Under the pieces are notes generated by a model. The model did not search any database and was not told the origin of the DNA. It worked only from the letters and a program-made list of their open reading frames with translations. A DNA stretch of 64,000 nt from Ceratodon purpureus. Its lineage: Eukaryota > Streptophyta > Bryopsida > Pseudoditrichales > Ditrichaceae. The position numbers and the translations under genes were made by a program. The stretch spans positions 12,298,901 to 12,362,900 of the forward strand of contig CM026433.1 in assembly GCA_014871385.1 (NCBI GenBank), written 5' to 3'. Below, one piece after another: positions 17,097 through 63,068 of the stretch (the stretch's first letter is position 1; every line of letters starts with the position of its first letter).

Positions 17097-18020
17097 CTAA
17101 CTCTCAGGGGCAGCAGTCTCAGGCTCTACAGCCTCTTCACTGGCTGCCTCAAGGCTGTCCTCAGCCTCCCCCTCTCCATCACCAATTGTGAACTCGAATG
17201 ACGCGGACGCGCCATACTGTTGCTCCAAGTACTCAACTGACGACTTGGTGAGGATCAATTTGTCAGCCCTCAAGACGTCGTACAGGTTCAAGCTCCGGGG
17301 TGTCAAAAGCTTGACGGTATCCACATTCCTGCTAGAAAGAACAAGATTCTCAGATGGGTTCATTGAAAACAACAACGAATTCTCACCCTGGTTAACCCCC
17401 CATCTCTTCAACGCAGCAAGGAACTCCTTCGTCTTGGGCGCGGTGAATTTCTCCTCGAAATCCTCCACCACGACGGTGTTGATGGTGGCGGACTGCAGGG
17501 CAGTGCTGATAGCCAACCTCTTCTCCTTCTTGTTCATCTTGATGGACCAATCCTTGGGCTTGGGACCGAACACCACACCTCCTCCGGGGCGCAGGGGCGT
17601 CCTGATAGACCCCTGGCGAGCCCTTCCGGTACCTTTCTGCTTGTACGGCTTCCTACCTCCTCCTCGCACCTCGCTCCTCGTCAAAGTCGACGCCGTCCCG
17701 CGCCTCCTGTTCTGCATCTCGCAGATCACGCCCCTGTGCACCACAGACTTGGCCGTCTCGGGCCGCGCGGTTCTCAGGTCCATCTCCACCTCCCCGGCCT
17801 TCTCCCCCTCGAACGTCAACACGGGCAAAGTGGTCGCCATCGCCACAACCCTGGCACCCGACTGGCATTGCAACTTCTTCACGCTCACCCGCTTCGCCAA
17901 TGGCGTCACCATCTTCAGCCCGCTGAACGACACATTGGTCACATTCTGCGACAGCGGCGAGGCGAACGATGAGGACGACGAGGTGAGCGGCAACGCCACG
18001 CTCGCGGTAGCCGACGCCAT
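17097..18020 (-). CDS. RPL4: Plastid large-subunit ribosomal protein uL4 (L4), nuclear encoded
   Basis: A single uninterrupted frame of 307 codons. Residues 1 to about 55 form a Ser/Ala/Thr/Val-rich chloroplast transit peptide ending near VAMATTLPVLTF. The uL4 core follows: RRGTASTLTRSEVRGGGRKPY, then KQKGTGRARQGSIRTPLRPG and GGGVVFGPKPKDWS, the classic rRNA-binding loop of bacterial-type L4. Next come EKRLAISTALQSA and NVDTVKLLTPRSLNLYDVL. The acidic Glu/Ala-rich C-terminal tail (from about residue 280) is a plant plastid extension. The protein binds 23S rRNA and lines the exit tunnel of the plastid ribosome. The gene is convergent with the LMBR1-domain gene, with 228 bp between stop codons. 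A 291-codon frame on the opposite strand (17188-18063) is a shadow of this GC-rich exon. Confidence 0.96.
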   Translation of the reverse strand: MASATASVALPLTSSSSSFASPLSQNVTNVSFSGLKMVTPLAKRVSVKKLQCQSGARVVAMATTLPVLTFEGEKAGEVEMDLRTARPETAKSVVHRGVICEMQNRRRGTASTLTRSEVRGGGRKPYKQKGTGRARQGSIRTPLRPGGGVVFGPKPKDWSIKMNKKEKRLAISTALQSATINTVVVEDFEEKFTAPKTKEFLAALKRWGVNQGENSLLFSMNPSENLVLSSRNVDTVKLLTPRSLNLYDVLRADKLILTKSSVEYLEQQYGASASFEFTIGDGEGEAEDSLEAASEEAVEPETAAPES

Positions 18021-18915
18021 TGCTGCACCAACAAAAACTTTGGATTCACCGAGCTGCCACTAGTGAGTAAGAGCAACAGAAGAGGCAGAGTGTCTTGAGC
18101 AAGGCGAAGAAAGAAGCCTGCGTCTGGATAAGGCCCCAGGCTCGGTCCTCCTCCCGAACCTCCTCCCCAGGCCCGGCGTCAGTCTGCACCCCCAAATCGG
18201 CTCTGGACTGCATCAAGATGAGATGTCATTCCTGATGCCATTTCCAAACAGCCCACGTAAATCTTTCTGTGATTAGACGCTTACACTCTCAAAATCCTCA
18301 TCAAAGATTAAGGTTACCCATCCAAAACCATATGCTTTTACTGATCTCGCATAGGAACGAATTTAGGAATCGTCTGTAGATTCTCCAAATTAGAACATCT
18401 TTCTAATTATAATTTGGTGAGGTTATACTACTTAATATAAAAAACTAATAATTGACAAATCATTGAAGTAGAATGTCGAAAGGCAGAGTCCCCTGCCTTA
18501 TAAACAAGTCCCTCAAAAGATTAAATGCTATGGTAAGTCACCCATTTCGTGGGAAAACCACATCTGCAAAAAAATGAATGTAAACTCTGATCATCTGTGG
18601 TGGCAACAAAGAATTACCAATTCTGGAAGGCCAGTGATCCGCAGCTCTACTCATCATCCACCAGACGACGAGAATCTGAAACTCACAGTTGGGAACTCGA
18701 CAGCCCAACGATGAGAAAAGCTTCCAAGGTTTGTATGAAACTCGCGGTGTTCAATCCAAAGGCCCAGAGAGCAGGCTTATCCACACACTCAGGGAGCCTC
18801 GACATGGCAGCTTGGCCACCTTCACCAGCGCAAACCAGACCACCTCCACAGCAACCACGACAGGGGATCAACACTTGCAACATTTCATCCTCACTTTGTA
18901 ACCATTGTTACGGAC
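18021..18915. promoter_or_regulatory. Divergent promoter region between uL4c and the fibrillin-like gene
   Basis: The interval between the uL4 start codon (minus) and the first ATG of the next gene (plus) is about 895 bp. It must hold both promoters and both 5' leaders. Plus-strand frames near 18597-19094 and 18689-18901 start in the leader and run over the first donor site, and they are out of frame with the downstream exons, so I treat them as leader sequence. No TATA box can be assigned safely. Confidence 0.5.
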
Positions 18916-28890: not shown

Positions 28891-29698
28891 ATAGTTATGT
28901 AAAATTTGGAGCATGATAAAGTCATGTATAATATATGTATTGAGTACCAATAGTATATAGTATAGTATAATTAATGACCTTAAGCATTAATTAATTGCTG
29001 ACCTTTGAGAAGTGTATCTTGTGGAGGTGCTATGTGGCACTTATGAATTAGCGCAAGTCGGTGAATCACAATGGGTTTGTGAATATCCAACACACTTGCA
29101 AGTTTCTCATCCCACAATTCCCACTCTATGTACTTGCTCACCTCCTCTCCACTCTCAAACAATATAGGACAATTCCCAATTCCATACCATACATACCATA
29201 CCATCACCATGCTATACCATGACCATGCCATACCATCACCATGCCATACCATCACCATATTATCACCATAACCATATCATATCAAACCATCACTATACCA
29301 TCACAATCACCATCCATACCCTGACCCCTCCACCTCATTAATTAATTAATTAATGCTGGGTGGAATCACCATAACCATATCATACCATACCATCACCATA
29401 CCATACCATCACCATCACCATCCATACCCTGACCCATCCACCTCATTAATTAATTAATGCCGGGTGGTATCACCATAACCATATCATACCATACCATCAC
29501 AATCACCATCCATACCATGACCCCTCCACCTCATTAATTAATTAATGCCGGGTGGTATCACCATAACCATATCATACCATACCATCACAATCACCATCCA
29601 TACCCTGACCCCTCCACCTCATTAATTAATTAATGCCGGGTGGCAAGCACATTTTCAATGCATAGTTATGTAAAATTTAGAGCATGATAAAGTCATGT
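28891..29698. repeat. 734-bp segment flanked by a 37-bp direct duplication
   Basis: The sequence ATAGTTATGTAAAATTTGGA plus 17 further bases (28891-28927) recurs at 29662-29698 with one mismatch. Copy B (around 51273-51310) has it once, uninterrupted. The 734 bp in between, including the minisatellite, are therefore an addition bounded by a 37-bp duplication. That is longer than usual transposon target duplications and suggests template switching, repair capture or a helitron/filler-type event. Confidence 0.75.
29258..29642. repeat. Minisatellite, 4 units of about 88-104 bp
   Basis: Each unit begins ATCACCATAACCATATCATA, continues through an ACCATC-rich section and CCATCCATACCCTGACCC, and ends CATTAATTAATTAATGC(C/T)GGGTGG. 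Units end near 29356, 29466, 29551 and 29642. The last two differ by one or two bases. The upstream 29180-29257 is a degenerate CCATACCATCA continuation. No protein is implied. Confidence 0.88.
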
Positions 29699-33358: not shown

Positions 33359-36300
33359 CTAAGCTGGAACTATTTCCATTGACTTGTTTCGCTCTCCTTC
33401 TCGCTTGTGTTCACCACACACCCAAGCAAGTCTTTTACTGCCAGATGTGTATCTGATTCTGTGAAGATCGAATAAATCTGGAATGCTTTTGCCTGAAAGA
33501 AAGTCTACCAACCATTGCTCGGCAGCTTTCTGTTTCTCCTTCAAGTCTTCTGGCAGCACAGCTCGCGACACACATCCCTCATCCACATTGGATGATACCA
33601 CATTAAGGGGTATCGAACTGGCAAGTGCTTTGATCAATTCCTTCTCTGCACCTTCGACAAAAGAACCCACACCAGCACCAATTGCAATACCACCTATCTT
33701 CACCAACAGTGAGATTGCTCGCACTCCCCATATCACATATGGAAGTGCACTTTGAAAACGTTCACTTGTGTAACGCAATTCACAACCCTTTTGTTTGCTC
33801 ACCAGGTGTACTCCTTCAATGTGCTCACACATAAGATGTACTTGTACCGATTTCAAACCTGGCACAAAGCTTGTAACCAACCGCGTCATATTGTCTGCAT
33901 CTGTGAAATACATAAGACGAGGCACTCGGGAATTTTGCAAGTGGATTGAGAAGTCCATCACCTTCTCAATGTTTCTTGAGATGTGAAGGAACAACTTTCT
34001 CTGCAATTTAGTATTCTCCTCCACTTGTTCAGATGTCTTTTCTGAGAACATGAGGATCTTGTCCAATTTATCAGACATCTGTCTTGACGTCTCATCGACG
34101 GCATCAAAGCGATGATGAAATTCTGCCCGTGTTATTCTGTGAATCTTCTTCACTTGCTCTTCCAAATGTTTGATGGTCTTATACAGAAAGACATTCTGTG
34201 GGTCTAAGCCTATCAAGTCATTCTCGTTTGAATTAATAGTTGTAAGATCCTCTGGTTTATCATCATCTGGCGGAAAGGATACCTCAGCTTGAACTTCTTC
34301 CAGGGCTTGGTGTTGTTTGTTGACTTCAACGGCAAGTTCTTTAAAACACTCCATGATCAAACCTTGCCACTCGTCATCGCCCAGAAGATCTTGTGCTTTG
34401 CTGCTTCCACCCGGAGAAGGCCATTCATGATCGTAGTCTAGATTGAAAGGTTCTTCTGATCCAAACATATCAAACTTAGACTTGACAAATCGAATCAAAT
34501 CGTTCACTCTTACTGCTTGATCCTTGCGGTCCCGCGTCCCTGAAGGTTTCTCTACAAACCTGGGATTCAAGATACTCTCCACAAGTACAACACCTGGACA
34601 ACCAAAGTTTGCAGAAGTACAGACGTCTTTGATGATTCGCAACACATGCTTTGTGAAAACTGAGGTATCAGGCTTGCTTTTGGAAGATCTCACGAGTACA
34701 TCAATGTAGCCATCCACGAGTACATCAATGTAGCCATCCTTTAGATCATAACCGGTTGTTGGTGTGGACTTTCCACAATACTCCACGATGGTTTCTTTCC
34801 CATCGTACCGCAAAGAAATGATGTTGTGCTTTACCACACAATTGGCATTCGATTCAAATCGTTTCATAAACTCAACCTGGACAAGATACAAAGACAATAT
34901 CAGAAGTAAACAAACAAGACATGGAACACATGAATATCAGCCTCATCATGTTTATCTAGTTTCTTTTGGAGATTGAACTTCTGTTATGGACTACTTACAC
35001 ACTTATGATATCGGTTGTTTTCCGTATGTATTCAAAAACTAATGCCCTAAATTATGAAACTCCATATTGTTCCGTGAATTTTTTCAAGGTATATATTGTT
35101 GGTTTTCCTGAATTTCACATGTAGAAAGGTTAAGTGGACATAAGTTCCAAAGATATAATCATTCTGTACCTGGACTCGAGGGAAGAATCCTTGTGTTAGA
35201 AATGTTTGCTCTTCATCTTCGCATTGAAGGCGATGCCCAACATAGCAGATCAATGAAAGGTCGGTATCTGATGGTTCAACTTGCCATTTGATCATCTTAT
35301 CTTCGTCAGCTCTGTTTCTCAACGTTGCAGGGATAAACAATCCATATTTATCGTATCTTTTGTCTTGTGCTGCAACTTCATAGCACAAGTTCATCTCTTT
35401 CATGACTTGAATCAAGTCTTCAACAAGTATACGCTCCATCCTCTTGCGTTTAGTTCCATTACATGGACCATCCAGAATTTTTTCCAGTGCTTCCATCTTG
35501 ACGAAACCGTTCTCATCTGCCACAGGTTTCTCCTTGTACAAGGCTGCATTCAATTTGGCATCAAGAGTGAGTATTCTGCCCATGATATCATGGCAGAACC
35601 AATTAGGTTTGACCACCACAGAGTTCAAGTTGTCGAAGTAGATGACATTTCCACTGTCATGTAATGCCACGGCAATTGCCTTGCATATATCTTGAACTTT
35701 GTTTTCTTTCTTAAATTGGATAGACATTGGACTCTTCTTAAACAACTCTTCAAACTTGGACATTTTGATGAGCGGCGTCTGGGGATTGTCCTTGTTCCAT
35801 TGCATCAGAATTTTCTCAACTTCAACACATACTCGATAGACTCTCGGCCCGTGTTGTAACATCTTTTGGGCATTGTATGCCAAACCTTTGAGTAGGGGCT
35901 TCACAGATTTTCTTGATGTTGCATCAATAAAAGACCATCCTTGATAGATACTTGGCCCATCTTGTGACATCCCTTGGGCATCTTGGGGCTTCACAGACTC
36001 TTCTGATCTTGCGTCAATAGAAGACCATCCAAGGAATTGAATGGAATTTCCAAATTTCAGTTTCAGCTTCTTCACGATATCTTCCACGGACTTTTGGATA
36101 ATGGCAACCTGTTCCTTTGGTACTAAGTCGGCATGAGTAAACACCAGAGTAATAAAAGGCTTGAACTTCTCTGACATTTTTGAATTGGAGACAATAAATC
36201 GCAACCAATATACAAGTTCCTCCTCAATTGCTTCATCCTCTTTTAAAGTGGGCTCCTTTCTTCCATCTTTGAGAATGACTTTTCCACCTTGATCGTTTGC

Positions 36301-38693
36301 CACCAATGAGCAAAGTATGACAAAGGAGCCACCACTCTCACAATTCGATGGAATGAAGAGGTCATGAAGAAAATGATAATCAACTTGACCGCCAAAGTCC
36401 CAAAAAGAAAGCTTTGCAACTTTGGTATTAATACTTTCCACCTCAATACCACTAGTACGAGGAATTTTCTTGTGCTTCCGGTAGCCTTTGAAAAATGCAG
36501 GTTTTTCTTTCCCAAAGGTGGTTCGTAGCTGAGTCTTGCCTACCAAAAAGAGTACACATGATTTACCACAAGACATGTTCAATCTTATACTACAAATTAA
36601 TTTTCAATGTTTCTTGTTAGTCATTGAAGATCCAACTTCAATGGTAAACATAACATTCTATTTATAAACTTTCTTAAAAAAATACTCAAATAAAGCCTAC
36701 AAAATTTGAATGAAACCCCAACATACAAAAGGGTAAGTGTAACTCTTTTCAATAATATCGATATTTATTGAAATCCACGATTTATAATTCATGAATTTTG
36801 AACAGACGCATTCTATGGACAAAGTAATAGATGAATAAACATACCTGCGTATGGACGTCCACATAGAAATACACGGGATGATTCAGGACTGATCAACTCC
36901 ATGCCCTCCAAAGCAACCGCAACATTCTTCTTCACTTGATCCTCCACCCTCTTGAATTCATCTGGTAAATCTATTGGCAAACGAATTTCTTCAACATAGA
37001 AATCGTGACCAACTAGATCCAATAGCTTTCCAATGATTCCTTTACCATCTTCCCTGCTCCAGCTCTGGCGCGTAATAACGTCCATGCCAAGCTTTTTAAG
37101 GTGTTTGTTTCCTTGTAAGGTTTCGAAGACACCAATCAAGTCCTGATAACTCCATATAGTTTGTGGACCAATATGACTCTCAATAAGTAACTCAATTGTC
37201 TTCAGCCTTGAATTCCTCAACAAAGTGATTACGACTTCATAGTGATGTTTCTCATTGTAGCTTGAATCATATATCCATAGAAGCTCCTTTAGCATGCTCT
37301 GATCTTCGGTCTGTGACACACTTGGACTTGACACACTTGGAAACAAGTGCTGAAGCAGAATCTCGTCCCATCTCGCATGATTTCGAAACAGAACCAGCTT
37401 CTCCAGAGTTTTCATTTTTCTTATGCTTTCAGCCACCTCAGGAATACATTGAGCATTCGATTCCCCCCGATCTAAAATACGTAACCCAAGTACACGCAGA
37501 GCAGACTGTCTGTTCAGTAGGTCCACAATAACTAGTGGATCAATGTCACCGTAAACCTGATTGAAACAACACAATCCAAATAACGAATCAGAATCTTTAC
37601 GTTTTCAAACCATTTCTAAGAGGTGCAGCAACATAGATTTTATGATGAAAGAGCATATTTCATTATCCAAGCATGTAATTTATCCAATACAGTCCAATCT
37701 GTCCACCCATTACTCAAGTAAATGTTCTTTTCTTATGAATGTTGGAATTTATTTTAGTATGTTCCTGGCCACAAATGAGATTCTTACCCCACTTAGGAAA
37801 AAGAGCAAAACCCACATCAAATCTGAGTAGCAAAACATGAGCGCACTAGTTTCTTTCGGAGATTGTTCAAAAAGTTGAACTTGCACGCGCGTTGGAAACA
37901 GAAGTCGAAGAGGAGTGAGTTATCTGCTCTCTGTTACTCTAACACCTGTAAATGATGCTTATGAGTGAATTGCTTATGAGGGTTGGACCATATATGAAGC
38001 CAACCTGCACAAGCTACTTCTATGGACATCCATCCAATTCATCTAAATTTTATATGCTACCAAAGATCAAATTTTGTTCCTCTTCAGCTCTATCAAATAG
38101 ACACAACAAACTACTTCAACTTCATTTTCTCCGACTAGATTCAATTCAGAAATGTACGAGTTGCACATACTACAAGTGAGTTCGAAGAATAGGAAGCCTT
38201 GCCCAGGAAACTCAAGAGTAGTAAACAAACGTCTTCACAAGCTCTACCATCAATCAACAGTTCATGGCTGTAGGCATTTTCACGGTACCTGGATCTCCAG
38301 TTCTTCCAAAACTGGGCATTTCGTAACAGCATTGACGATGGATGCCCATTCATCTCCCGAAAACCTGACACTCCGATAATCTGGCGTATATGTCATTGGC
38401 TGCGTCTTACCGGTGCCATGTGGTCGGTATGGTTCAAAATCGTACCCATGGAGCATGCATTGTTCCCAGTATGATTGGCCCTGTGCATTCTTGTCTATAC
38501 CGGACAATTCCACAGATACTGAATCCCCAGATTCTAGTCCCAATTTTATAGTACAGTGCAATTTAGTGTCAGGAGGACATGCTTCCAAGGCAGCGTAGAA
38601 TGGTCTAAGAATTTCCTCATTGCTTTTTGCATAGTCTGGGGGTTTGAATTGGCGCCACCATCCAGGGGGGTGAAGGCGATCGCAGTCTTCCAT
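33359..38693 (-). CDS. Roco-family (LRR-like/ROC-COR) GTPase
   Basis: Four exons give 1334 residues: 38693-38289, 37556-36845, 36539-35170, 34876-33359. The phases agree. An in-frame TGA three codons upstream supports the ATG at 38693. Exon 2 has LRR-like strands (ALRVLGLRILDRG, KTLEKLVLFRNH, LKTIELLIES, HLKKLGMDV). The ROC GTPase domain follows: P-loop GRPYAGKT (368-375, its second G split by intron 2), WDFGGQ (419-424, G3) and THAD (507-510, G4-like). A COR-type region runs to about residue 850 (ITLVFTHADLV, CKAIAVALHDSGNVIYF, GLFIPATLR). The C-terminal half has a predicted coiled coil (KTIKHLEEQVKKIHRITRAE) and a hydrophobic Gly-rich stretch (IGGIAIGAGVGSFVEG), ending near AWVCGEHKREG. No kinase domain is present. 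Two in-frame internal duplications are listed separately. Roco proteins are GDP/GTP-dependent dimeric signalling GTPases; no specific role can be inferred here. Confidence 0.88.
34693..34741 (-). repeat. 24-bp in-frame tandem duplication within the Roco gene
   Basis: The unit CACGAGTACATCAATGTAGC plus CATC occurs twice in a row and gives DGYIDVLV DGYIDVLV in the protein. The copies are identical, so the duplication is recent and keeps the frame. Confidence 0.93.
35897..36028 (-). repeat. 90-bp-spaced internal duplication within the ROC/COR region
   Basis: Two blocks starting GGCTTCACAGA (about 35898 and 35988) are 90 bp apart and encode GWSFIDATSRKSVKP and GWSSIDARSEESVKP. The frame is maintained, adding about 30 residues just after the G4 region. 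Confidence 0.8.
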
Positions 38694-48835: not shown

Positions 48836-51563
48836 TTAGAGTGGATTGTTGATGAAATAGGGTAACGGAGGTCGTAAGTCCAATCTATATGAGGGTCATG
48901 AAGTGTGGTATCTCTTGATTGGATTATTTTTTAAGGAGGTTGTAGCGAAGGAGACTTTAATGTTAACTTTGATAGTCCTTGATTTGAGGTAGTACAATAT
49001 ATATAGATTTTTTCTATATTTAATTGTGGAGGTTAAATGTAACATTTTTTTATTATTAGTTTGAGCGCCTAGAACGCTTGGATTATTTACTTTGTTGCTT
49101 AATTTTTGGTCAGAGGTTTCTTGGCTCCATCTAAGAAATAATTTATGTTTTACATTTTTTTAAGTGAATTATTAACCATTAAGTGTATGAAAAAAATTGA
49201 GAGAATGTAATTCAAATCTTTGTATTGTATAATTGTAACCTCTTATGTACATCTTAACTATTCTGTGTTATAAAGGAAACTTTCATTTTTCTACTAATAT
49301 GCAAAGTGACTCAATCCTAGAAACTTTCCAATGCATCATTGAGGTTTGAGAAAGTCCATTGCCACTAATTATAGATAATAGTGTTTTGATGTATTTGGAT
49401 TAATTATACTATTAAAATATATTTAAGATAATAAAATAAAGGTAAAGTTGATGTTGATGTGATTTAGATGAGCTCTTAAAATAAAACTATATGTAAGAGG
49501 CAAGTGCCAAAAAATACATCACTTTTTTTTCATCCTCAATGGACTTTGAAGGCTTAATTCTGTATAGATATGGAAATGGACACTTTCCTTATAGAAGGCA
49601 CTTTGGAATAATACCATTTACTACGAACGCTAAAACCTTCTTAGTTGATATAGTGTTTAGCACACTTCTAATTGCACTTAGAATTGGTTATCAAATGCTT
49701 CCAAGTAAAATTAAAAAAGTCCACATTGATCATATTCAAAATCTCAATGAATTTACATTTTTTGAATATTTGCACAATGAATTAGACTTACAATGAGATG
49801 TTCTAAATTAAGTTGCCAAATAGTTTGGATCATAACATGGCTCAAATATTGAGGGTATTTAGTTGTAGTTGCCAAAGGGGTTTTTATTTTATATAGATTG
49901 CTTTATTAAATGATGTCTATACTCACAAGAAATTAAGTGTAGCTAGATAAATCGTCTTTATGGGGGAGAGCACAATAAAGTGGACCACAAAGTGCAATAT
50001 GTGATCACTAAAAAGTGAATATGAAGTGTGCTGTTTTTTAAAGCTCAAAGCTGATTTTGAGCATTTTGGTGTAGTTTTTGAGCATTTTAGTCACTTTCTA
50101 GGGTGTCAGAAGGTATCTTACACGCATCTTCATAGAAAGAACATCCTCAATTGAAATTAAATTTGACCACTAATTCTAAATCATGAAAATGAACTTTTCC
50201 AAAGTCTTGATTTCTTCATTTACAGCCCTCTATTGTCTTTAGAGGATGTTTTTTCCAATTTAAAAAACAATGTTCGGTAGAAAAAAACACACAAAAAGTA
50301 CCGCCAAAGTGACCCTCCTAAAAAACATCCCGGCGGTACTTTAGGAACCCTAAACTAATTAATGAGTATGTGAATTTACTATTTTAGAATACCTCTTAAA
50401 CATACAGAGGGCTGCACTTCATCAAAAGTGATTTTGAGATAGTTTTTGATCTTTTATAGCCACTTTTACAAATGACTGCATTCACTTTGCTTGGATTTAA
50501 AGCCTTCATACAATAACTTAAAAGTGTCTACTTTGCACGAAACTTTTCCAAGTTGTAGAAAAACAAGTTGAGAATCCATATTAGTAAAAACATTTGACTT
50601 CAATTACATCTTTCCATCACTTTTGTGCAATTTTTGCAAAAGGGCTGAAATTGACAATGAGACGTCTACTTTTGTGGTCCACTTTATTGTGCTTCCCCTC
50701 TTATTCTTATGATAACATAACATCTCAAGTATATGTGATTGATTTGTTGTTATTCTACATCCCAAGGATATAAACCTTGCTATTGTCTCAATGGCAAGGA
50801 GCCTGCATTGGTAGAGGCAAAAATCCCCTTATAAACTAAATGGATGATCTTCCTAAATGTAGGAAAATTAAAATTTAACTAGGAAAATAAATAAATGAAT
50901 ATATTAATGAAATATACTTCTGAATATATTTTCTAAACAATGTAGAATATTTGCATTACTTCACAATCCCTCAAAAATAATGTATGTGACCCACTAGTAT
51001 AAAGTACAATGCATTGTGTAAGTTTCTTTTAAGGTGGCAACACTTATAATTGTATTAGAGAAGTACTTGAGTATAGACCATATATTTTTGATAATTATGT
51101 TCATTGGATTAAAATGGTTATTTATAGGAAATAAACAATCTAATATATAATAGAGTTTTTTTGAGGGGCTTTCTTCACACTTACCTTGGTTTTTGGAGTT
51201 TGCAAAATGTATGAATCATATTTTGCTTCACAAGACTTTGACCTCTAATTTTTATATTAAAGTATATAGTAGTTGATAGTTATGTAAAATTTGGAGTATG
51301 ACAAAATCCTGTGGTTTCGGAACTTCAAATGAGTCCAAAATTCCTTCATCACATGATGTATTTATATGCTTTTTATGAGGTAGACAGAGATGCAATTTCA
51401 TATTTTTAAAATTGTTTATTTGAAAATGTTTGTTTTCACACAAGATAGAAGACTTTCAAAGACCATGTTCAGGTAAAGTTAAAGATCAATGACAAGCATG
51501 TGGATTGGAAAATAAAAGGAAACAAATGTTGTTGATGTCTGTTATATGAATTGTCGTGATAAT
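48836..51563. repeat. Dispersed repeat, copy B
   Basis: Collinear with copy A (25697-29885). It contains a 739-bp MITE (49962-50700) that copy A lacks. Where both copies are present the similarity is roughly 75-85% by eye, so the pair is old. Copy B has an open stretch at 49539-49796 (ITPFTTNAKTFLVDIV-like reading) that is broken in copy A and not recognised. Its left end abuts the NSE1 remnant. Confidence 0.85.
49962..50700. mobile_element. MITE with about 30-bp TIRs (739 bp)
   Basis: The left end GGGGGAG followed by AGCACAATAAAGTGGACCAC matches the reverse complement of the right end, GAGGGGA then the same AGCACAATAAAGTGGACCAC. Copy A of the host repeat supplies the empty site (TCTTCTTTATTCTTATG). 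Comparison gives a target duplication of TTAT (49958-49961 and 50701-50704). An internal inverted pair AGTACCGCC/GGCGGTACT (about 50297 and 50332) could form a second stem. No transposase frame. Confidence 0.9.
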
Positions 51564-51991: not shown

Positions 51992-53376
51992 CTAATATTG
52001 ACATATTCGAATACGTTTTCATGATCACTTGAAGATTCTCTAGCACCCAAAAAAAAAAAAAGTGGAAAATATCTAAATTAAAAATTGAAGTTTCACTTTA
52101 AATTCAGGGGAGAGGAAGTGGCAATGGAATGCAAGTGCCCCATAAAACTGCCACGTCCTAAATGGTAGCTGAACAGTTTTCATGGGAACATCGCTCCTTT
52201 CGATTGTATGTACTGTACTTATTAATGAAGGGCAACGTGTGAGACTGACAATATTCCTAAATTCAGAACTGTGAAGGGGAGGAAACTTTTGAAAGTGTTT
52301 CGTTTAAATAAACAACACTTGCTCCGGACGTCGATGGGTCTACGTAAATTACACTCGTGTGGAACAGTAAATGCGATTCCCCTTGGGGGCGAAATAATTG
52401 TGTGAAGCTGCCGGCGGGACTGTGGCGTACGAACTAACTTGGTAACTGGAAAGGGAGGTGCGGTCTTCTTCAATAGGGTTTACGTGGAAATTAGGGTTTG
52501 ACAACAGAAAGCTCCAAGGAATTTGCGAGACATCGCAAATACTGTGACAGGTGCTAATTGCTGACAAAAAAAAAAACGAATTGGCGATGGCGGTTAGGCA
52601 AAGATGGGTCCATACCGTCACAAAGTGCAATGGGTCAGGCGTTCTACAACTGCAAGCAACTCATCAAGTGACATGAAACGGATTATCCAGTTTTACAGCC
52701 GACAATGCGGCTCACTCGGACTGTTGCGGGGCCAACGACAGGCGTGGAAGAGGAAAAGGAGGGCTGATTCCTAAGCAACACGGAAGACGGGGTAAGAATT
52801 CTAGGTTCGAAAACTCTGTCCATGCTTAAGAAGAAATTAGGGTTCAATGTAGGGGCTCCATTACGTTTGAGCTGCATGCTTGGTGTGCATTGAAAATTAG
52901 TGCACAGTGACAAGAATATGGTGCTTTGGGATCTTGAACAGTTAAATTGTTTTCATGAAGAAATAAAAAGGAAAATGGTTGCAGAACGTATTGTGACGGG
53001 TCAGGTCGGGTTTCGGCTTATGTTATCAGAGAGCACACACAATGGCCGTGTCTTAACCATGTATGTGTGTGGATACTTGGTACATTTTTATTAGATTGGT
53101 GGAAGGGCGAGGACGACTGCTTCAGATACAAAATTCCTTCTGAGCGTAGACTCGCATCTCCTGGGGGACGAGGTAGCATCTTGCAGTTGCATACCATTTG
53201 CAAATTGCAGCTCGGCCATATCGGCAGCAGAGTCAGATCACGCCAGGTACGTAACATGAGCCATGCCGCGACATTCGCAAATAGTGTCGCAAATTATTGC
53301 AATGGTCATTGTTTAATAACAACATGGCGGAAAGTTTAATGGCATCAGGGTAGAACGTCGTCAAACACGCTGTGGT
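51992..53376. other. Intergenic, unassigned frames on the minus strand
   Basis: Minus-strand frames 52683-52913, 52349-52630 and 52222-52473 are mildly protein-like (for example PNFFLSMDRVFEPRILTPSS) but have no domain I recognise and no clear splice chain. They could be a decayed gene end. Confidence 0.4.
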
Positions 53377-53450
53377 GAATTCAATCTCTGCTCTCTATGT
53401 AATGCAGCAGTCTCCGACTTATAGAGAGCAGAGATTCAGAGATTGAATTC
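53377..53450. repeat. Inverted repeat upstream of the transposase-like gene
   Basis: GAATTCAATCTCTGCTCTCTAT (22 nt, 53377-53398) pairs with the arm at 53421-53450, which reads as its complement with an extra 8-nt CAGAGATT duplication. The loop is about 22 nt. Further copies of AGAGATTGAATTCATAG follow to 53490. It lies 64 bp before the start codon. Confidence 0.8.
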
Positions 53451-53513
53451 ATAGAGATTGAATTCATAGAAATTCAGAGATTGCTCTCTGATCTCATAAG
53501 TGTTTTGCCAGGA

Positions 53514-56500
53514 ATGGGTACAAAAAAGAATCTGCGTGCACGGACACCTGCGTCAGCACGGAGAGAGCAGAGATTGGAGGAAAGCCAACGGCGGGAGGTA
53601 GAGGTTGAACATCAAAGGGAGCAGGAGCGACTTCAAGTCCTCAGGTTAGGCTCTCCATGACCTGCGTGGAATGGGGGACTTTCATGGTGAATCAATGGTG
53701 CTTTCATGTGCCCATCCAGAGCAAAACGTGAATGTATTTGTGAAACTCAGATCGCATTGTAAGAATCGGTGTGTCAGAGTGTGCAGTGTATTGATAGAAA
53801 CCAACTTTGTAATTGAAATGTCCTGTTTGTAGGGCGGCTCAAAGGCGAGAGTATCACAGAACATGGAGGACGAGGAGGACGAGGGACGAGGTCAATGAAC
53901 AGGAGGATATAGGGACCGGAGCAGGGCCCTCAGGAGAGAACTCTGGTGAAGAACATAACACATCGGAGCACGAGGTTTTGGAGTCACCATTGCGCGACCA
54001 GGGAGTGGAGATGAGTGCTGGCGATGAGAGAAGAGGTGGAATGTCTGATGAGGAAGATATTTTTCTAACTCCTGGCACAGACTTCACGGCAGAGGACGGA
54101 GAAGATGGTGACCACGGAACAGCGACTCCACGCAATCGCAAGATTAGAGCAGCAGCCGTGAAAGTGGAAAGTCACTTGATGCAACTCTTGCAGTCAGGAT
54201 TCACCGACGAAGAGAAGAAGCTTGTCTTGCACCGTTGTTTCGCCGAGGAACGCATACGCGCGCTTGATCCGGAATTAAGCGCTACGGTGTTGGGGTTCAA
54301 TACTGTTGCTGCAACAACTGTGCAGAGCTTGCGAGGGGCGCTCCAGACCATACGAGGGGCGGGTATGGAGGGAAGGGCCAAGGTGAGGAACATAGTGCTC
54401 ACGGCTGCTGTGTCCAAGGACAGCTCGCAAAACATGATAAGCATGGCATTAGGGGCGTCAAGGTATCTTGTTCGCAAAGCGTTTCAACGGCGCAACTCAG
54501 TTGATGAAAGTGGCGAAATTCTATGGGTGGGGGGGTGCAGAAAGCGTCGGAATGACGCTCTTAGTGCAGAGGATCAGACTCTGGTGTGCTCTTGGTGGGA
54601 GACAGAGACCACAGTCTCCCCGAACAAAAGGGATGTGAAGAGGCGCCGAATAGGAGTGAAGGACCACGAAACGCATGCTACCCATTACCTACAGGTGTCG
54701 CAGGTAGAGCGTTGCCACATCCTTGCCCATGGCTTCTACTTGTGTCATGCTCAAGCTGCAGCGTTTATTTGCAAAGTGTGCCAGGACATGTTGCCAATGC
54801 ATCTTTTCTTAATTCAATTTTTCATTGCGCTACTACTACTACACTGTCCGCAATTCAGGAGGAGGATTTGATTAAGCGATTGGATTTTGAATGCCAATTT
54901 AGGATCGCGTTTGTTGTGAATTTGGTGAATTTGGCTTGGGATTAGCTTGATGGTGCGGCTTGAGCTGCATTTGATTGCCCTACTAGTTCATGAGCTAGTG
55001 ATTTTTGTATGGAATGATGTGGCTAGGGTTAGAGCACTGGCTATGGTTGATTAGCCAGAGTTGTGATTGAAGTGATGTAATGGATTAGGTGATTGGATTT
55101 GGACTGGTAATTTATTCTGCTGGAGTTTGGGAAATGCTGTTTGCGATGGTCAGTTTCTGTTTGAAGGAGAGGCGTGAGCTGCATAAGGTTTTAATTCGTG
55201 GCCTGATTGTGCCGCATTGGATTGCTCCTTTGTTTCCTGAGCTGCATTTTCATGTTTAGTTATTGTTTAGGGTTAGCCTGATTGCGGTGGTTTTTATTGT
55301 TGCTTGATAAGCCAGTCTCGTGATTGAGCTAGTGAATTTGATGTGGTGATTGGTGTTTGGCTGCGAATTATCCTTCAAGTATATGCAAGACTGTCATGCT
55401 TGGTTTAAGTGGTTTAAGTGTACCGTGGGCCATAATATATGAGTGTTGGAATAATGTGAGAGTCTTGAAGATTGGCTCTTGCTGTTTGAGCATTAAATGG
55501 CACACTAGAATTTAGATCTTTCTCAAATTAGTTGGTACATCATAACGCTTTCTCGACTGATTTGGATAATTTGCTCCAGTTTCCTTAGAATTCTTGCGTG
55601 AAGCTGAATAACGTATATGAGTGAAAGAAGTCGTTCTGAATTCTACCCGAATAGGAGAAGTTATTGGTTTATCAAGCGTCCATGTAAGTTCCACCGCAAG
55701 TGAGTTGCTGAATCTGATCAGGCTGTCGAGTGCGAAGCGTTGCAGCTGCCTCAGTAATTACTACCTAAATTATGGTACTAATGAAGCATCAAGGTGAGAG
55801 ATACTTTGATGGGAAATATGATATTTGGGTGCTCCGATCCGCAGTGTCTCGGTGTCCTGGTATTTCATGGAAGGGGCTCTTATTTTGCCATTTCAATGGA
55901 CTAAATTCAAAGTGTTGGTTAATCTGACCTGCTCTGAGTGCACTTTTTTTTAATGGAGTTGTGTGTTATTGTGGCAGTTGGAATTCCATGCGACGTTTAG
56001 GGAGGCCAACGAGGAGAGGACAGTCGGGCTCCGAGCGTTTGAGCTTCTAAAGCCGTTCTATGTGAGGAGGTTGAGGGAGAGAAACACATGTGCCTGTCGA
56101 TATCACTGTGAACTTGCGGAGTTGAGAGTTGGCTGGAACAACATGAGATCCGCGACCAAGGGGATTCATGGGCGGCACTGTGACTGCTTATGTGATGTGT
56201 GCTTGTGCCCTCCCACTATGGAGCCTACTGCCGTAAGTCGCCCAAGTTCATGCCACGCTGACTTATCACACTTTACCGGATTGACCGACATGTGGCACAG
56301 CGTCGTATGCCCAGTGACTGCCGACGGTTGGCACGCACAAAAATGTCTCAAGGGCGAATGTGACCTTTGTGGGGTGGAGATGTTGCATATTTGTCCGAGA
56401 GAAATGGAGACAGATTTGCCACTCATGGTCCAGTGGCATAACTTTGAAATGGTAGTTCACGGGAGGACTCGAAGTGGGAAAGAGAATAAAGTCCCGCGGA

Positions 56501-58539
56501 TGATGTATCAAACTACTAGAGCGCCAGTCTTCATAACCTACTTGGCCGAGAAGCTGCGCCCATTCATTTTCCACAATTATATTGCAAAATGGCAGGCTGA
56601 GCGATTCAAGGAGTCAATTGACACTTTCCCACCTGACTCTATCTTGTCGGCTGTGGATTTTGCGGAGAACTATACTTTCCAGCCATATGATGAGTTGCAG
56701 TCTATGCACTGGCTGCAACACCAGATTACAATTTTGGTGCACATATGCTACAGGTGGAATCCAGCTTTTCTTGTAGATCCAAGTTCAGACGCACCAAAAC
56801 TGCTCACGGAGTATCACTATTACATTAGTGATGCTCCAGAGCATGACACTTTGTTTGTACAACATTGCTTTGCGTTACACTGGAAACACATTACTGGAAG
56901 GGGGATCAGACCAAATGAGCACATCGTGTGGTCCGATGGGTGTGCAGCCCAATTCAAATCAAGGAGATGTTGGTATCATGTGTCAAGGTATGTTCAAAAA
57001 TAACAAATCCCGTGTAGTCAAGATTTTATATGAACAACCATGGAGTGTGTGCTCTGAAATTATACTGTCACGTTTTGTGGGCCTGCATGTGTAGGTATCC
57101 TTCAACAACTGTCTCGCCTGAGTTACCCAATGGCTGCCGAATGGTTTGGTCCTACTTCGGGAGTGGACATGGCAAGGGGGTACATGACGGGGCAGGAGCC
57201 ATGCTTAAGTGTGCACTTCGCAGGGAGGAAATGAACTTCCAGTCTCGCACGAGGCTTCAAAGTGCGGCAGACGTGGTTAACTTTTGCAACTGCAAAGAGC
57301 TTGAGGAGCATCGGGCATATGGAAGAGCGCGGCGCAGTGTGATACGCTACTTCCACTTAATTGATCCAGCTGCTGTCGATCGGACGCGTGACCTAGACTG
57401 TATGGCCATACCCGGCACTAGGTCCGTCCACTCTGTCTCTTCCGTGTCACCGATCAATGTGACATATTTGCACATTAGGCAACTTGCCTGTTTCTGCACG
57501 GAGTGTATGGACGACAACCCCCTGTTCTGTTCGAGACAGAACCATGTACGGCATTGGGATTTGAAGGTCCTCCAGCCCCTGACGCCAATTCCCGTGAGTC
57601 CCCACCATTTTGCATTTTTGTCCGTTTATTTTTTGGTTTAGGGTTCAGGCGGATTTGTGTATTGTGTAAACTGCAAGGGGAAATGGACCTTGGCTGCCGA
57701 ATGTGTTTGCTCGTTGCAGCCAATTGAGTGAGCTAGACCTGCGTTTCTGTCGTGCTGAGAGCTTGGATCTGAGAAAGTGCACATTGTTGGAGAGTTTAGA
57801 GATTTATGTTGTTAAGTTTTTATCGAGTTGTTAATTATCATTTAACTGTAGGTGTCATCGTAGCATGGCTTGGCAGGTTTTTTATCAGCTATGTGTAATG
57901 TTGTTTCGGGTCCACATGCAGAGCGCAGGTGCGGGTACACGTCTCCAACGTGCAAGCGAAAACTGCGCAGAGACTGCTGAGGCGCATGTTGACGCGCAAC
58001 GACGTTCGGAGGGAGAACAGACCCTAGGGGAGACTGTTCTACATGTTGCAGCTGGGACTGCAAGCAACGACGGGAGAACAGAAGATTTCGAAGACAGTTT
58101 GATTGACGAAGGCGAGGACGAATGCGACTTGGACTCCGAGGCATCAAGAGTCAAGATAGGGGACACTTATGTAGTGTACACCGATCTACCTGAACACGGT
58201 GATCCTTTTTTCTTAGTGTTGTGTGACATGCCCGTCCACAACAACAATGCAACATTCACTGATGGATGGGGTTGCTCTTGGCCGAAGGATACGATGTTGA
58301 TCAGTGGCACGTACTACAGGCGAGTTCCAAGTGTAGGTCGGGGCAGTGACTCCTACAGGTACGAACTTTTGGAGGATGAACCAAAGGCCTGGACCTACTC
58401 CCACCTAGTGGTGCAGTCCAGGGTGGAGTTGTCGCAATATAAAAGCAACAAGAGGAATCCGCGTTTTAAAATGACATCGGAGAGAAGGGAGGAGATTCTA
58501 TCCAATGTGGAGGACCGCCAGGCTTATAATGCTCATTGA
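53514..58539 (+). CDS. Intact transposase-like protein (DDE-type fold suspected), 1042 residues
   Basis: Five exons: 53514-53644, 53833-54703, 55978-56987, 57095-57593, 57922-58539; all GT-AG with matching phases. Residues 1-60 are Arg/Glu-rich and likely coiled. About 60-130 are acidic and low-complexity. Residues 335-671 contain Cys/His clusters (CACRYHCELAEL, HCDCLCDVCLC, CLKGECDLCG). Candidate catalytic acids lie in three spaced motifs: VDFAENYTF (D561), VWSDGCAAQFKS (D654) and FGSGHGKGVHDGAGAMLK (D702 or a following acid). These motifs recur in uncharacterised eukaryotic transposase-like proteins; I cannot name the superfamily. An earlier in-phase donor (54694) would give a protein three residues shorter. 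No stop or frameshift interrupts the 3129-nt coding sequence. I found no terminal inverted repeats flanking the gene, so domestication is possible. Exon 5 has a predicted globular part (VKIGDTYVVYTDLPEHGDPF). Confidence 0.8.
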
Positions 58540-59985
58540 GGTTATTTGCAGCACCTCAGGGGTAAGTGAAAGGCAACAAGTTCCCTTTCCTGCGTACTTG
58601 TCTTATTTTATTTGTGTTTATGTGCTTAAATCCACCTCTATAGTTTGTCATTTCATATATTGATTGGGCTGGCTGTTATTTGTTATTAAATTTCCTGTTT
58701 TATATCTGGGCAGACGGATTTTCGTGGACCGAATGGACCTAAGCGGGCTCGCACAGATGGTAATTTAGTGATTTGAAAATGGATTGTTGATAACTTCATT
58801 CTGGATGTTTCCACTTTCACTCAGTTAGGTGGGTTGAAGTATGGCCGAGGGTTGAAGTATGGCCCAGGCCGAGGGCTTGGGGTGCCCAGGACGAAGGCTT
58901 GGGGTGCCGAGGCCGAGGGCTTGGGGTGCCGAGGCCGAGGGCTTGGGGTGCCGAGGCCGAGGGCTTGGGGTGCCCAGGCCGTGGTTTACTTTTTCTCTGG
59001 TTAACTTTTGGTTAATTCAGACTCTTTTCCTTTTGTTTTTACAGTTGGTTTAGTTCTTAGTTCAGGCTATTTTGGTCTGATTAGTGCAGTTTCTCTCTGC
59101 TTTGTGCAGTTGAGTTTTATTGTTTAGTACTTTCTTCAGACTTTCTGGTCTAACCAGTCGCCACAACCTTGTTTATCTGTTTTCTTGAATCTATTCCCTG
59201 TGAACTCTTATCTTTGACAATCAGTGTACAGTTCCACATGCTAGAGCTTTCCTACTGCTTTACCTTGGTATGTGTTAACTCGATAGAGGTTGCATGGACT
59301 AACAGATTTGCCCCAAGGATGGTCTGTTCTGGGTTGCTAACCCGCACGTGGTTTACATGAAACGCTTGTCCTCAGGTTGCGGGAAGTAATTGCTGGCAGT
59401 GACGATCTCACTTCTTTGCAAGATCGTTGCTTGACCTGATTCATAACGGACTCTTTTAGACTTTGGTGTTGCTTATTCCTTTCATATCACTTATCAGACT
59501 TGTATACCTTAACTGGATATGTCAGTTACATTTGGTTTGATTGCTTCCTTGTTCTATCACGCAATCGACAGAGGAGTTTACAATTGTAGAACAAGCCAGG
59601 ATTTTGAGATGTTGGAAGTTTTTGGTCGAATGTTTGGTCGAGGTGATGCGGTTTAGGGTTTTGGTTTTGCTGGCAATGGCGACTCTGTTAATTGAGCGTT
59701 TTGGATGCTTAGGAGTTAATTGAATAGCATGTTTTATGGTGAGTGGAATCGTCAATCTGTAATTGCGTTTTCAAATCGTGTGAGTTTCTAGTCTCGATCT
59801 GGCATCAGTTCCCAGGGTTAATTGTGTCCGAATGCTTGATGCTTGTTTCTGGTTTTAGTTTATCTAAGTTTTTGATGTCATGGCGTGGAGAGCGGGTTGT
59901 CAGGTGAGCTCATGATCACTTGGTGACGTTCCTTTTATGTCCATCAATCAGGGTATACTCTGCTTAAGGTTTGTGAGCAGAGAAA
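58540..59985. other. Spacer between the transposase-like and TTC1-like genes
   Basis: Just after the stop, a GTAAGT donor (58563) and a CAG acceptor (58714) with GPNGPKRARTDG coding potential suggest either a 3' UTR intron or a former last exon with a basic tail. The remainder holds the 22-bp minisatellite and non-coding sequence that should include the TTC1 promoter and leader. Confidence 0.45.
58873..58983. repeat. 22-bp GC-rich minisatellite, about 5 units
   Basis: The unit GGGCTTGGGGTGCCGAGGCC plus GA repeats head to tail, with outer units slightly changed (GCCCAGG in place of GCCGAGG). Strong G/C strand asymmetry and runs of G4 make it prone to slippage or G-quadruplex folding. Confidence 0.92.
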
Positions 59986-62372
59986 ATGGTGCTTATTGAG
60001 CTTGCAGAAGATGACGCTCCTGAATATGAGCAGCGGAAACCTAAGAAGAATCTCAAGTCGGCTTCTCCTATCACCCAAGAAGCTGCGTCAATCAGAACGG
60101 ATAGCACACCAGCAGAAGGAAAGGACCCCACTGTCCAACCTACCTCGGGAGGTGCACAACCGCAGAGCAATGAGTCCCTAACAGAGACTCCTGCTCAAGC
60201 TGCCCAACTCACTGGCCATCCCGATGACACGCTGAAGAAGTTGAGAACGGGTATTTATTTATTCTTTCCTTAAACCCATATCTGTAACTTCAAAATTCTA
60301 TTTATGCTGCTTACGGGAGACTAAACCAGAATATAGGAACACTCATTAATGATATCGGACCATACTTTCGAATCTTTTTGCAACTGAAGCCATGAACTCT
60401 ACTAGACAACTGTCTCTGTTGATCACGTCGAGGTGATAAAGCATATTTTAGAAATAGAGGTGCATAGTAGGCTCTCATCTGAACATGTGTTATTCTGAAG
60501 TACCATTATGATGATATGTTCTTGGAATCGTGACACCAACTTCAAAATGTGTTGACGTTGATTTCATAGAAGGTGCAGGACAAGCCAAATCCAAAAAGAA
60601 AGGCGACTCGCATGCTGATGGTGAAGGAGATGGATGGGAGACTGCTAGCGAAGGAAGTGAAGAGGCGGACGATGTTTCTCACAGTGGCGACCCTGCAAGT
60701 TCAGACGAGAAAGCAGCTACTACATCAGAAAACAATGAGGATCATTTTGAGGACGCTTTGACAGAGGAGGAGCTACGAGCGGTGAGTGAAGTATAGGTTA
60801 CAGCTTTCCTTTTGGTATGTGGTTAGTAATTTACTAACTTTTCAAACACCTTTTTGCTCGTGTGAAGTCTCTTGTTGCAGAATTGGCGGGCTCTTGTTGA
60901 AGAAATCATAGAACTTTTTTGATTGTTCATATTAACAGATAATCAAATAAGAAATGGTTCTCCTGATCACATATAGTGGTGCCATATTAGATTATACGAT
61001 CTTGTGCGTCGTGCTTTTCTTTTTGGAAATTCTGATGAAGTGTATTTGCGATGAGTGAATACAGAAGGCTTTATCGTTAGCAAATGAAGCTAAGTCACAG
61101 GGCAACTCTTTGTATGTTGCTGGCAAGTACTCGGAGGCCTTGGAATGTTATGCTAGTGCATTGGAAGGTGTTGCCAATGATCCAAGTGCAAATGAGCTGC
61201 GTGCACAATGCTACTCAAATCGAGCTATCTGTGAAATCAATCTGGTAATATACCGAAAGTCTCCACAACTCTAGACGTGTACATGTCTCAGTTACACTCT
61301 CGATGTACTCACAATCTGTCTCTTCTCAAAGTCTCAGGTAGTTATTGATGATAATTAATTAAATGCTACAGCTATCTGTGATGTGGCATTTGTTTGAACG
61401 ACGCTATATTGTCCCTCTTGTTTTCTATGAGAATATGAAGCTACTTTGTATGATTGAGCTGTGGGTGTGGAATTAGGAAAGTAAATACATGGTTGTTGAG
61501 CAGATCTTAGTGCCTTGGAAATATGTTGATCATTGAAGTGCTTGGGTTTCGTTTCTATTTTGCAGAAAAATTACAAGGATGCAGTGACGGAGAGCACGAA
61601 AGCTCTAGAACTTGATCCGAACTATGTGAAAGCTTTAATGAGGCGTGCTCAGGCTAATGAGAGTCTTGAAAAGTTATACCGAAGCTCTTTCTGGTATGGA
61701 TAATGAGACTTGAAAGTGAGACTGAATGCCCATGTAGTGTATATTCAGAGTATGATTTCTCCTGCCATTGTGGTTGTGATGAATAGGGCAGCTATCTTAA
61801 ATATGAAGTTGTTTTAGAGTTGCCTGTAATGGATGTAACTTTCAAAATCAGTGATGCAGGGTTTATGATGAATTATTATGGGGCAAAGTGCAGCTCATAG
61901 TAACAAGTGGTTCTGTTACAGACTTGAAGAAAGCCCTTGAACTCGATCCTTCCAACAAAGTCGCCCGCGTGTCCATTATCAGGTTGGAACCAATCGTCGA
62001 AAAGAAAAGAGAGGAACTCAAAGAAGAAATGATTGGTAAGATGGACTCCCAACCCTTGAGTGAACTGTTATCTCTCAAGCCTGGTTGAATCTTATGTTAA
62101 ATGTAATCGCACTGTTTCTGTTCAGTGGGCTCTTTATTACTCTTTTTTCCCCTAGTGATCGGGTGCACCCAATGCACTTGATGCAGATGTCTTTCAATCG
62201 GTTTTCACTTGATCCAAGTGTAGTATTTACTCCTTGACAATGTCTTTGAGCAGGTAAGTTGAAGGAGCTTGGTAACAATGTGCTCGGAAAGTTTGGTATG
62301 AGCGTGGACGATTTTAAGGCAGTGAAGGATCCTAATACTGGAAGCTATTCCATCTCTTTCGGCAAAAGCTAA
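59986..62372 (+). CDS. TTC1-like TPR protein, frame broken in exon 4
   Basis: Six exons: 59986-60250, 60570-60781, 61065-61244, 61566-61693, 61922-62035, 62254-62372. The protein opens MVLIELAEDDAPEYEQ and has an acidic segment with DHFEDALTEEELRA. TPR motifs follow: LANEAKSQGNSLYVAGKYSE, AQCYSNRAICEINL, KNYKDAVTESTKALELDPNY and VKALMRRAQANESLEK. Exon 5 gives DLKKALELDPSNKVARV and exon 6 the conserved C-terminus GMSVDDFKAVKDPNTGSYSI. Exon 4 is 128 nt, whereas the phase needed to join exon 5 requires one nucleotide fewer modulo three. After ESLEK the frame shifts, and splicing to exon 5 makes TGA at the junction (261 residues). The correct frame resumes as YTEALS one base on. TTC1 proteins are cytosolic TPR adaptors or co-chaperones. 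It is either a young pseudogene or an assembly indel. Confidence 0.85.
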
Positions 62373-62398
62373 ACCAAGCCAGTCTGCCCACTTTTGCA

Positions 62399-62616
62399 GA
62401 ATTGCAAAATTGCAAAATTGCAAAATTGCAAAATTGCAAAATTGCAAAATTGCAAAATTGCGAAATTGCAAAATTGCGAAATTGCAAAATTGCAAAATTG
62501 CGAAATTGCAAAATTGCAAAATTGCAAAATTGCAAAATTGCGAAATCGCGAAATTGCAAAATTGCAAAATTGCGAAATTGCAAAATTGCAAAATTGCAAA
62601 ATTGCAAAATTGCAAA
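62399..62616. repeat. 8-bp repeat array, about 27 copies of GCAAAATT
   Basis: Head-to-tail octamers GCAAAATT with scattered GCGAAATT variants begin 27 bp after the TTC1 stop. Because three octamers make eight codons and the unit has no stop in any frame, all six frames are open (readings such as KLQNCKIA). These frames are repeat artefacts. The A-to-G changes occur almost only at the fourth position of the unit. Confidence 0.96.
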
Positions 62617-63068
62617 AAAAAGGGTCCTCCACCCGTCTAGGGGTATTAACCGGCCATATTGGGCAAGTTAAGCTGCGCTCGCATACTTACTGTACCACAA
62701 GTGCTGCAAGTTCGAAGGGTGGGCCCTCAGATAGCGATGATTATTTAAGTAACGAAAAACCTCTTCGGACTGTGCTGGAGGTTATCAATTTCTTCCTCTT
62801 ACTCTCGCAGCTTCCTGGACAATGGTCGTTATGCTATGTATTCCTCGTTAGTGATCGTTATTACCATGTGTGTATTCCTAGTTGGTGATCATTGACCAGG
62901 TTTGGCCTTATCTCCAAGTTCAGAAACTTACCAGATTCCACTATTTGATCCCAATCTTTATGGTATGTGTGCTCTTCAGAAGGTGGTGACCGGTTTTGCT
63001 TGCATTTGTGGTCATAAGTCTTGAGTTCTGGAATTTTTGAAGCTAATTTCGGGTAACTGTGTTCACAG
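62617..63068. other. Spacer after the octamer array
   Basis: No supported exon. Plus and minus frames here have no recognisable domain. Confidence 0.5.

Follow-up and report, generated by a model that had tools for sequence, protein, structure and literature searches.

An uninterrupted five-exon gene with transposase-like motifs in a 64-kb window of Ceratodon purpureus

Structure of the five-exon gene

The window analysed here (the whole stretch of 64,000 nucleotides) carries on its forward strand a gene of five exons, with lengths, in order, of 131, 871, 1010, 499 and 618 nt. Re-derivation of the gene, with the junctions tested in the sequence, gave a coding sequence of 3129 nt that specifies 1042 amino acids plus the stop codon and contains no internal stop. 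The exons are located as follows:

53514..53644, + strand, exon 1: ATG start codon and donor GT; encodes the basic N-terminus
53833..54703, + strand, exon 2: AG/GT sites, within a 352-aa ORF; N-terminal region, acidic then basic
55978..56987, + strand, exon 3: within a 349-aa ORF; Cys/His clusters at aa 372-411 and 457-473; D561 and D654
57095..57593, + strand, exon 4: D702 (GHGKGVHDGAG) and additional Cys/His residues
57922..58539, + strand, exon 5: C-terminal region and TGA stop codon

The four introns (188, 1274, 107 and 328 nt) are each of the GT-AG type, and the 3129-nt, five-exon, stop-free coding sequence described in the initial annotation was reproduced exactly. The introns are predicted from splice signals. 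Intron 2 has an alternative donor after position 54694, 9 nt upstream, whose use would leave the frame unchanged.

Exons 2 and 3 lie within the two longest ORFs between 52 and 60 kb, which measure 352 and 349 aa. In 300 Markov-1 randomisations of this region, the longest ORF had a mean length of 161 aa and a maximum of 293 aa, so both ORFs exceed the longest one in 300 of 300 randomised sequences. The next two ORFs (234 and 207 aa) each fall inside the randomised range when taken singly. Since the two longest ORFs outdo all randomisations, the five-exon frame is very probably real coding sequence, its splicing being predicted from splice signals.

Several minor features lie at the borders of the gene. 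Surrounding the exon 1 start codon, the stretch 53382-53576 contains short direct repeats, with a 15-bp unit at 53438-53474, and is bracketed by an inverted pair, 53382-53410 and 53548-53576. A possible extra exon at 58714-58759 (acceptor GGGCAG, donor GTAATT), which lies beyond the in-frame stop at 58537-58539, would encode TDFRGPNGPKRARTD, a sequence that resembles a nuclear localisation signal. Just 3′ of the gene, at 58862-58981, there is a GC-rich tandem repeat of 22 bp (5.5 copies, 93%).

Protein motifs, predicted fold and profile searches

The N-terminus of the protein is basic and gives way to an acidic stretch. Residues 372-411 and 457-473 form two Cys/His clusters N-terminal to three motif acids, D561 in VDFAENY, D654 in WSDGCAAQF and D702 in GHGKGVHDGAG, which are separated by 92 and 47 residues, respectively. 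A CxxH (C665-H668) sits between the second and the third acid, and additional Cys/His residues are found C-terminal to D702, at 735-737 and 803-824. All of the acidic motifs and Cys/His clusters noted earlier are present, and the acid that had been placed near residue 702 is D702. Degenerate patterns for motif blocks 1 and 3 have a single match each in the window and no match in 100 shuffles; the patterns were built from this very sequence, which makes the single match inevitable and leaves the zero as the sole informative part. The zero shows that the patterns are specific and says nothing about catalysis.

The order D561-D654-D702 resembles the core of DDD transposases, and the three blocks are reminiscent of unannotated proteins in many animal genomes. 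Crude secondary-structure propensities place one strand at 581-593, another at 686-691 and, following D702, a helix at 704-719, which is compatible with a DDD core; they also assign D561 to a short helix and call no more than two strand residues ahead of D654. AlphaFold2 was run without an alignment and returned a mean pLDDT of 33.1 for exon 3 and 34.4 for exon 5. In the exon 3 model, which is of no confidence, D561 lies in a helix and D654 follows a strand, while an RNase H core would carry a strand at the position of D561. The RNase H fold suggested by the initial annotation was therefore neither supported nor refuted by these single-sequence models (pLDDT of about 33-34).

No Pfam family reached its curated gathering cut-off, either with the whole protein or with pieces of exons 2-5; the best score belonged to DUF4326 (17.1 and 18.4 bits; cut-off 25). 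Pfam models exist for hAT, MULE, PIF, CACTA, Tc1, piggyBac and other superfamilies, and no match at gathering score to any of them was obtained. NCBIfam profiles did not match the protein. A PHROG search gave nothing above the cut-off (best E-values 0.07-0.09), and the PDB search matched no solved structure, with one hit at E 0.6. We took these PHROG and PDB values, as well as the Pfam scores of DUF4326, HET-S and CNOT1, for chance. The comparison with transposase families that had been proposed as a check on the annotation was, in Pfam and NCBIfam, negative.

Relatives of the gene were sought in non-plant collections of viral contigs, phages and plasmids. No related locus was found in the viral contigs, and tblastn against plasmids and phages gave no match. 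Four motif scans over the viral contigs retrieved 3, 0, 0 and 61 stretches. In 112 viral loci the translated motif occurs 64 times, with a loose second motif near 8 of these, and tblastn on these 112 motif-bearing loci detected no relative up to E 1. Within the 64-kb window itself, the next-best tblastn match to the gene has an E-value of 3.5 and no second copy was found.

One can ask whether the protein is a transposase at all. It may be an unrelated nuclear protein of plants in which the three acidic motifs occur by coincidence, given that both fold and family stayed unconfirmed in the searches and models and that the propensities at D561 do not point to a strand. Against this speak the order and setting of the motifs, which are like those of DDD transposases, and we consider such a coincidence improbable. 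The earlier description of the protein as transposase-like stands as plausible on account of the motif order after the Cys/His clusters; as an assignment backed by a profile match or a fold, it does not.

Element ends, age and constraint

The flanks were searched for element ends by comparing 46.0-53.5 kb (7.5 kb to the left of the gene) with 58.5-64.0 kb (5.5 kb to the right, where the window ends). Ungapped inverted pairs were collected at five stringencies with four shuffles each, and target site duplications (TSD) of at least 4 bp were counted, those of 2-3 bp not. Inverted pairs with such a TSD numbered 2, 2, 2, 0 and 0 at the five settings, which is no excess over the shuffled counts of 0-2, 0-4, 0-2, 0-1 and 0. 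For perfect 10-bp pairs with such a TSD, two were observed and the four shuffles gave 0, 2, 0 and 2. Regardless of the TSD, one setting of five (14 bp, two mismatches) yielded 201 pairs versus 140-180 in shuffled flanks, an excess that cannot be tied to element ends. Words shared between the left and right flanks were not in excess. Among the 25 of 65 inverted pairs listed for 48-64 kb, several with 70-81% identity flank the gene, for example 50358-50387 with 60321-60350.

One pair of perfect repeats was singled out from this search:

52772..52781, + strand, candidate left end, weak and not above chance: TAAGCAACAC with TTCC ahead of it
59466..59475, − strand, candidate right end, weak and not above chance: TAAGCAACAC inverted, with TTCC after it

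On the left, the preceding TTCC can alternatively be read as the 6-bp ATTCCT ahead of AAGCAACAC. Flanked on either side by TTCC or ATTCCT, the TAAGCAACAC pair at 52772/59475 would delimit an element of 6704 bp. Of 400 Markov null flanks, 8.75% contained at least one pair that combined a perfect repeat of 9 bp with a TSD of 6 bp, and the pair found here is a candidate only. The absence of flanking inverted repeats, remarked upon when the gene was first described, was confirmed to the extent that no TIR/TSD pair rises above chance within 7.5 kb on the left and 5.5 kb on the right. It is weak evidence for domestication, since the ends reported for Sola elements are very variable, with TIRs from 11 to 1124 bp (PMC10741241).

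The age of the gene was considered with a neutral-decay model. We found that 3.65% of substitutions in the coding sequence would make a stop, and 5-10 frame-breaking indels were assumed per 100 substitutions. The probability that a neutral copy is still open then falls from 0.26-0.12 at 0.5% divergence to 0.07-0.01 at 1% and to below 0.005 at 2%; at the assumed indel rates, such a copy would probably have lost its open frame once divergence reached 1-2%. Because a neutral copy seldom stays open over that distance, the gene is, under this model and its assumed indel rates, young or constrained. The either/or offered by the initial annotation, a young autonomous element or a host gene under constraint, can fairly be drawn from the intact frame.

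The ratio of observed to expected CpG is 0.77 in the exons and 0.59 in the introns, and ranges from 0.29 to 0.86 in 4-kb blocks of the window. The exon value lies inside the range of five host ORFs (0.49-0.89), which indicates no heavy CpG decay. It suits both a young element and a host gene, and CpG was set aside as a discriminator.

According to the second branch of this either/or, such a transposase would have given rise to a host gene that is immobile, has lost its ends, is kept by purifying selection and acts as a DNA-binding regulator or a retained nuclease. We regard this main rival reading as possible but rather unlikely. The intact frame with introns, the single copy in the window and the failure to detect ends in the searched flanks are all in keeping with it, and the three motif acids, all kept, might even permit retained catalysis. 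A young element would present an identical picture, however, and introns are also known in transposon-borne transposases such as Dada (PMC3706591). A narrower version, in which a non-flowering plant has domesticated a Sola-like or unnamed DDD transposase with its three acids kept, possibly as a programmed DNA-cutting enzyme, appears unlikely. Between a mobile element and an ordinary host gene, we lean towards an intact element, since it is from such elements that intact transposase genes more commonly stem; this preference is a prior.

Affinity of the putative transposase and other features of the window

The reading that we tentatively prefer, at a little under an even chance, is that the locus represents an intact gene for the transposase of a DNA transposon of the cut-and-paste, DDD type, young or recently active and nearest to the Sola superfamily. 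From the spliced mRNA a nuclear protein would be translated. We infer that its Cys/His clusters and basic N-terminus would bind the element ends, and that an RNase H-like core, with D561, D654 and D702 coordinating two metal ions, would catalyse the cleavage and rejoining of these ends, thereby moving the element.

Plant DNA transposons are divided into nine superfamilies, seven of them with TIRs, and Sola elements are described as having a DDD transposase, a 4-bp TSD and a length of mostly 2-9 kb, with some above 15 kb; they occur in the moss Physcomitrella patens and are seemingly uncommon in flowering plants (PMC10741241). Among the systems considered, the description of Sola would fit best, because the three D in place of D-D-E, together with the length, match it; the fit is by description, and membership in Sola is a lead. 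The DDD transposase described for Sola1-3 would correspond to the three ordered D of the protein, and the usual Sola length of 2-9 kb would accommodate the gene. In our flanks, pairs with a TSD of at least 4 bp are no commoner than chance. Ends above chance, a family match and a second copy in the window are all absent in our searches, which speaks against a Sola-like element.

The protein may instead be a transposase of another or unnamed superfamily, which would agree with the lack of a match to curated Pfam families and with the position of C665-H668 after the second acid, as in hAT, P, MuDR, Kolobok and Dada (PMC10045372 and PMC9587614). The likeness to this C/DxxH group consists in the CxxH between acids 2 and 3. 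So short a motif could be chance, the last acid of the group is E where the protein has D702, and Pfam gave no match. The transposase of Dada is large, is encoded by several exons and contains zinc motifs of the Cys type; in Dada-U6_DR the catalytic residues are D567, D635 and E811, and Dada inserts in small RNA genes (PMC3706591). The gene is likewise multi-exonic and its product has Cys-type motifs, but the spacings of 67 and 175 residues in Dada-U6_DR differ from the 92 and 47 found here between three D. Neither these residues nor the small-RNA-gene targets fit, and a search of the window against Rfam at gathering scores gave no match. Membership in Dada was rejected on the spacing, the mismatch of E with D and the Rfam result. 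We judge a transposase of another or unnamed superfamily to be quite unlikely.

In comparison with domesticated transposases, FHY3/FAR1 (MULE-derived) and DAYSLEEPER (hAT-derived) are likewise intact transposase-like genes without evident TIRs; they differ from the gene studied here, which has no Pfam match of any kind. The domesticated plant transposases known to us are mainly derived from MULE and hAT elements. Were the locus a host gene, the plant domestications would gain a further transposase lineage, one in which the motif acids are preserved. No domesticated Sola element was found among the open-licence papers listed, which is weak evidence of absence. If, on the other hand, the gene is mobile, the plant DNA transposon to which it would belong is intact and possibly active, and its type is seemingly uncommon in flowering plants (PMC10741241); it would be a candidate tool. 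The finding is worth a check of copy number and synteny rather than a strong claim.

The window contains 135 stop-to-stop ORFs of at least 80 aa, overlapping frames and the five-exon gene included. The statement of the initial annotation that all other mobile elements in the window are non-autonomous was spot-checked on ten further ORFs among them, which had no Pfam hit above the cut-off. A ribosomal protein L4 gene (PF00573, E 1e-60) lies on the minus strand at 17100-18059, and we read its N-terminus as a putative plastid transit peptide, which points to a plant host; an LMBR1 gene is also present. An ORF with a COR-A domain (PF16095, 38 bits against a cut-off of 35.3) occupies 35050-36603 on the minus strand and has, in addition, a Roc match below the cut-off. 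Two large minus-strand ORFs at 33362-34936 and 36816-37604, which have no Pfam hits, may join this COR-A gene. A nested minisatellite with CCATA/CACCAT units and longer periods of 88 and 104 bp extends from 29182 to 29643, and an array of the 8-bp unit TTGCAAAA (28 copies, 93%) occupies 62394-62617.
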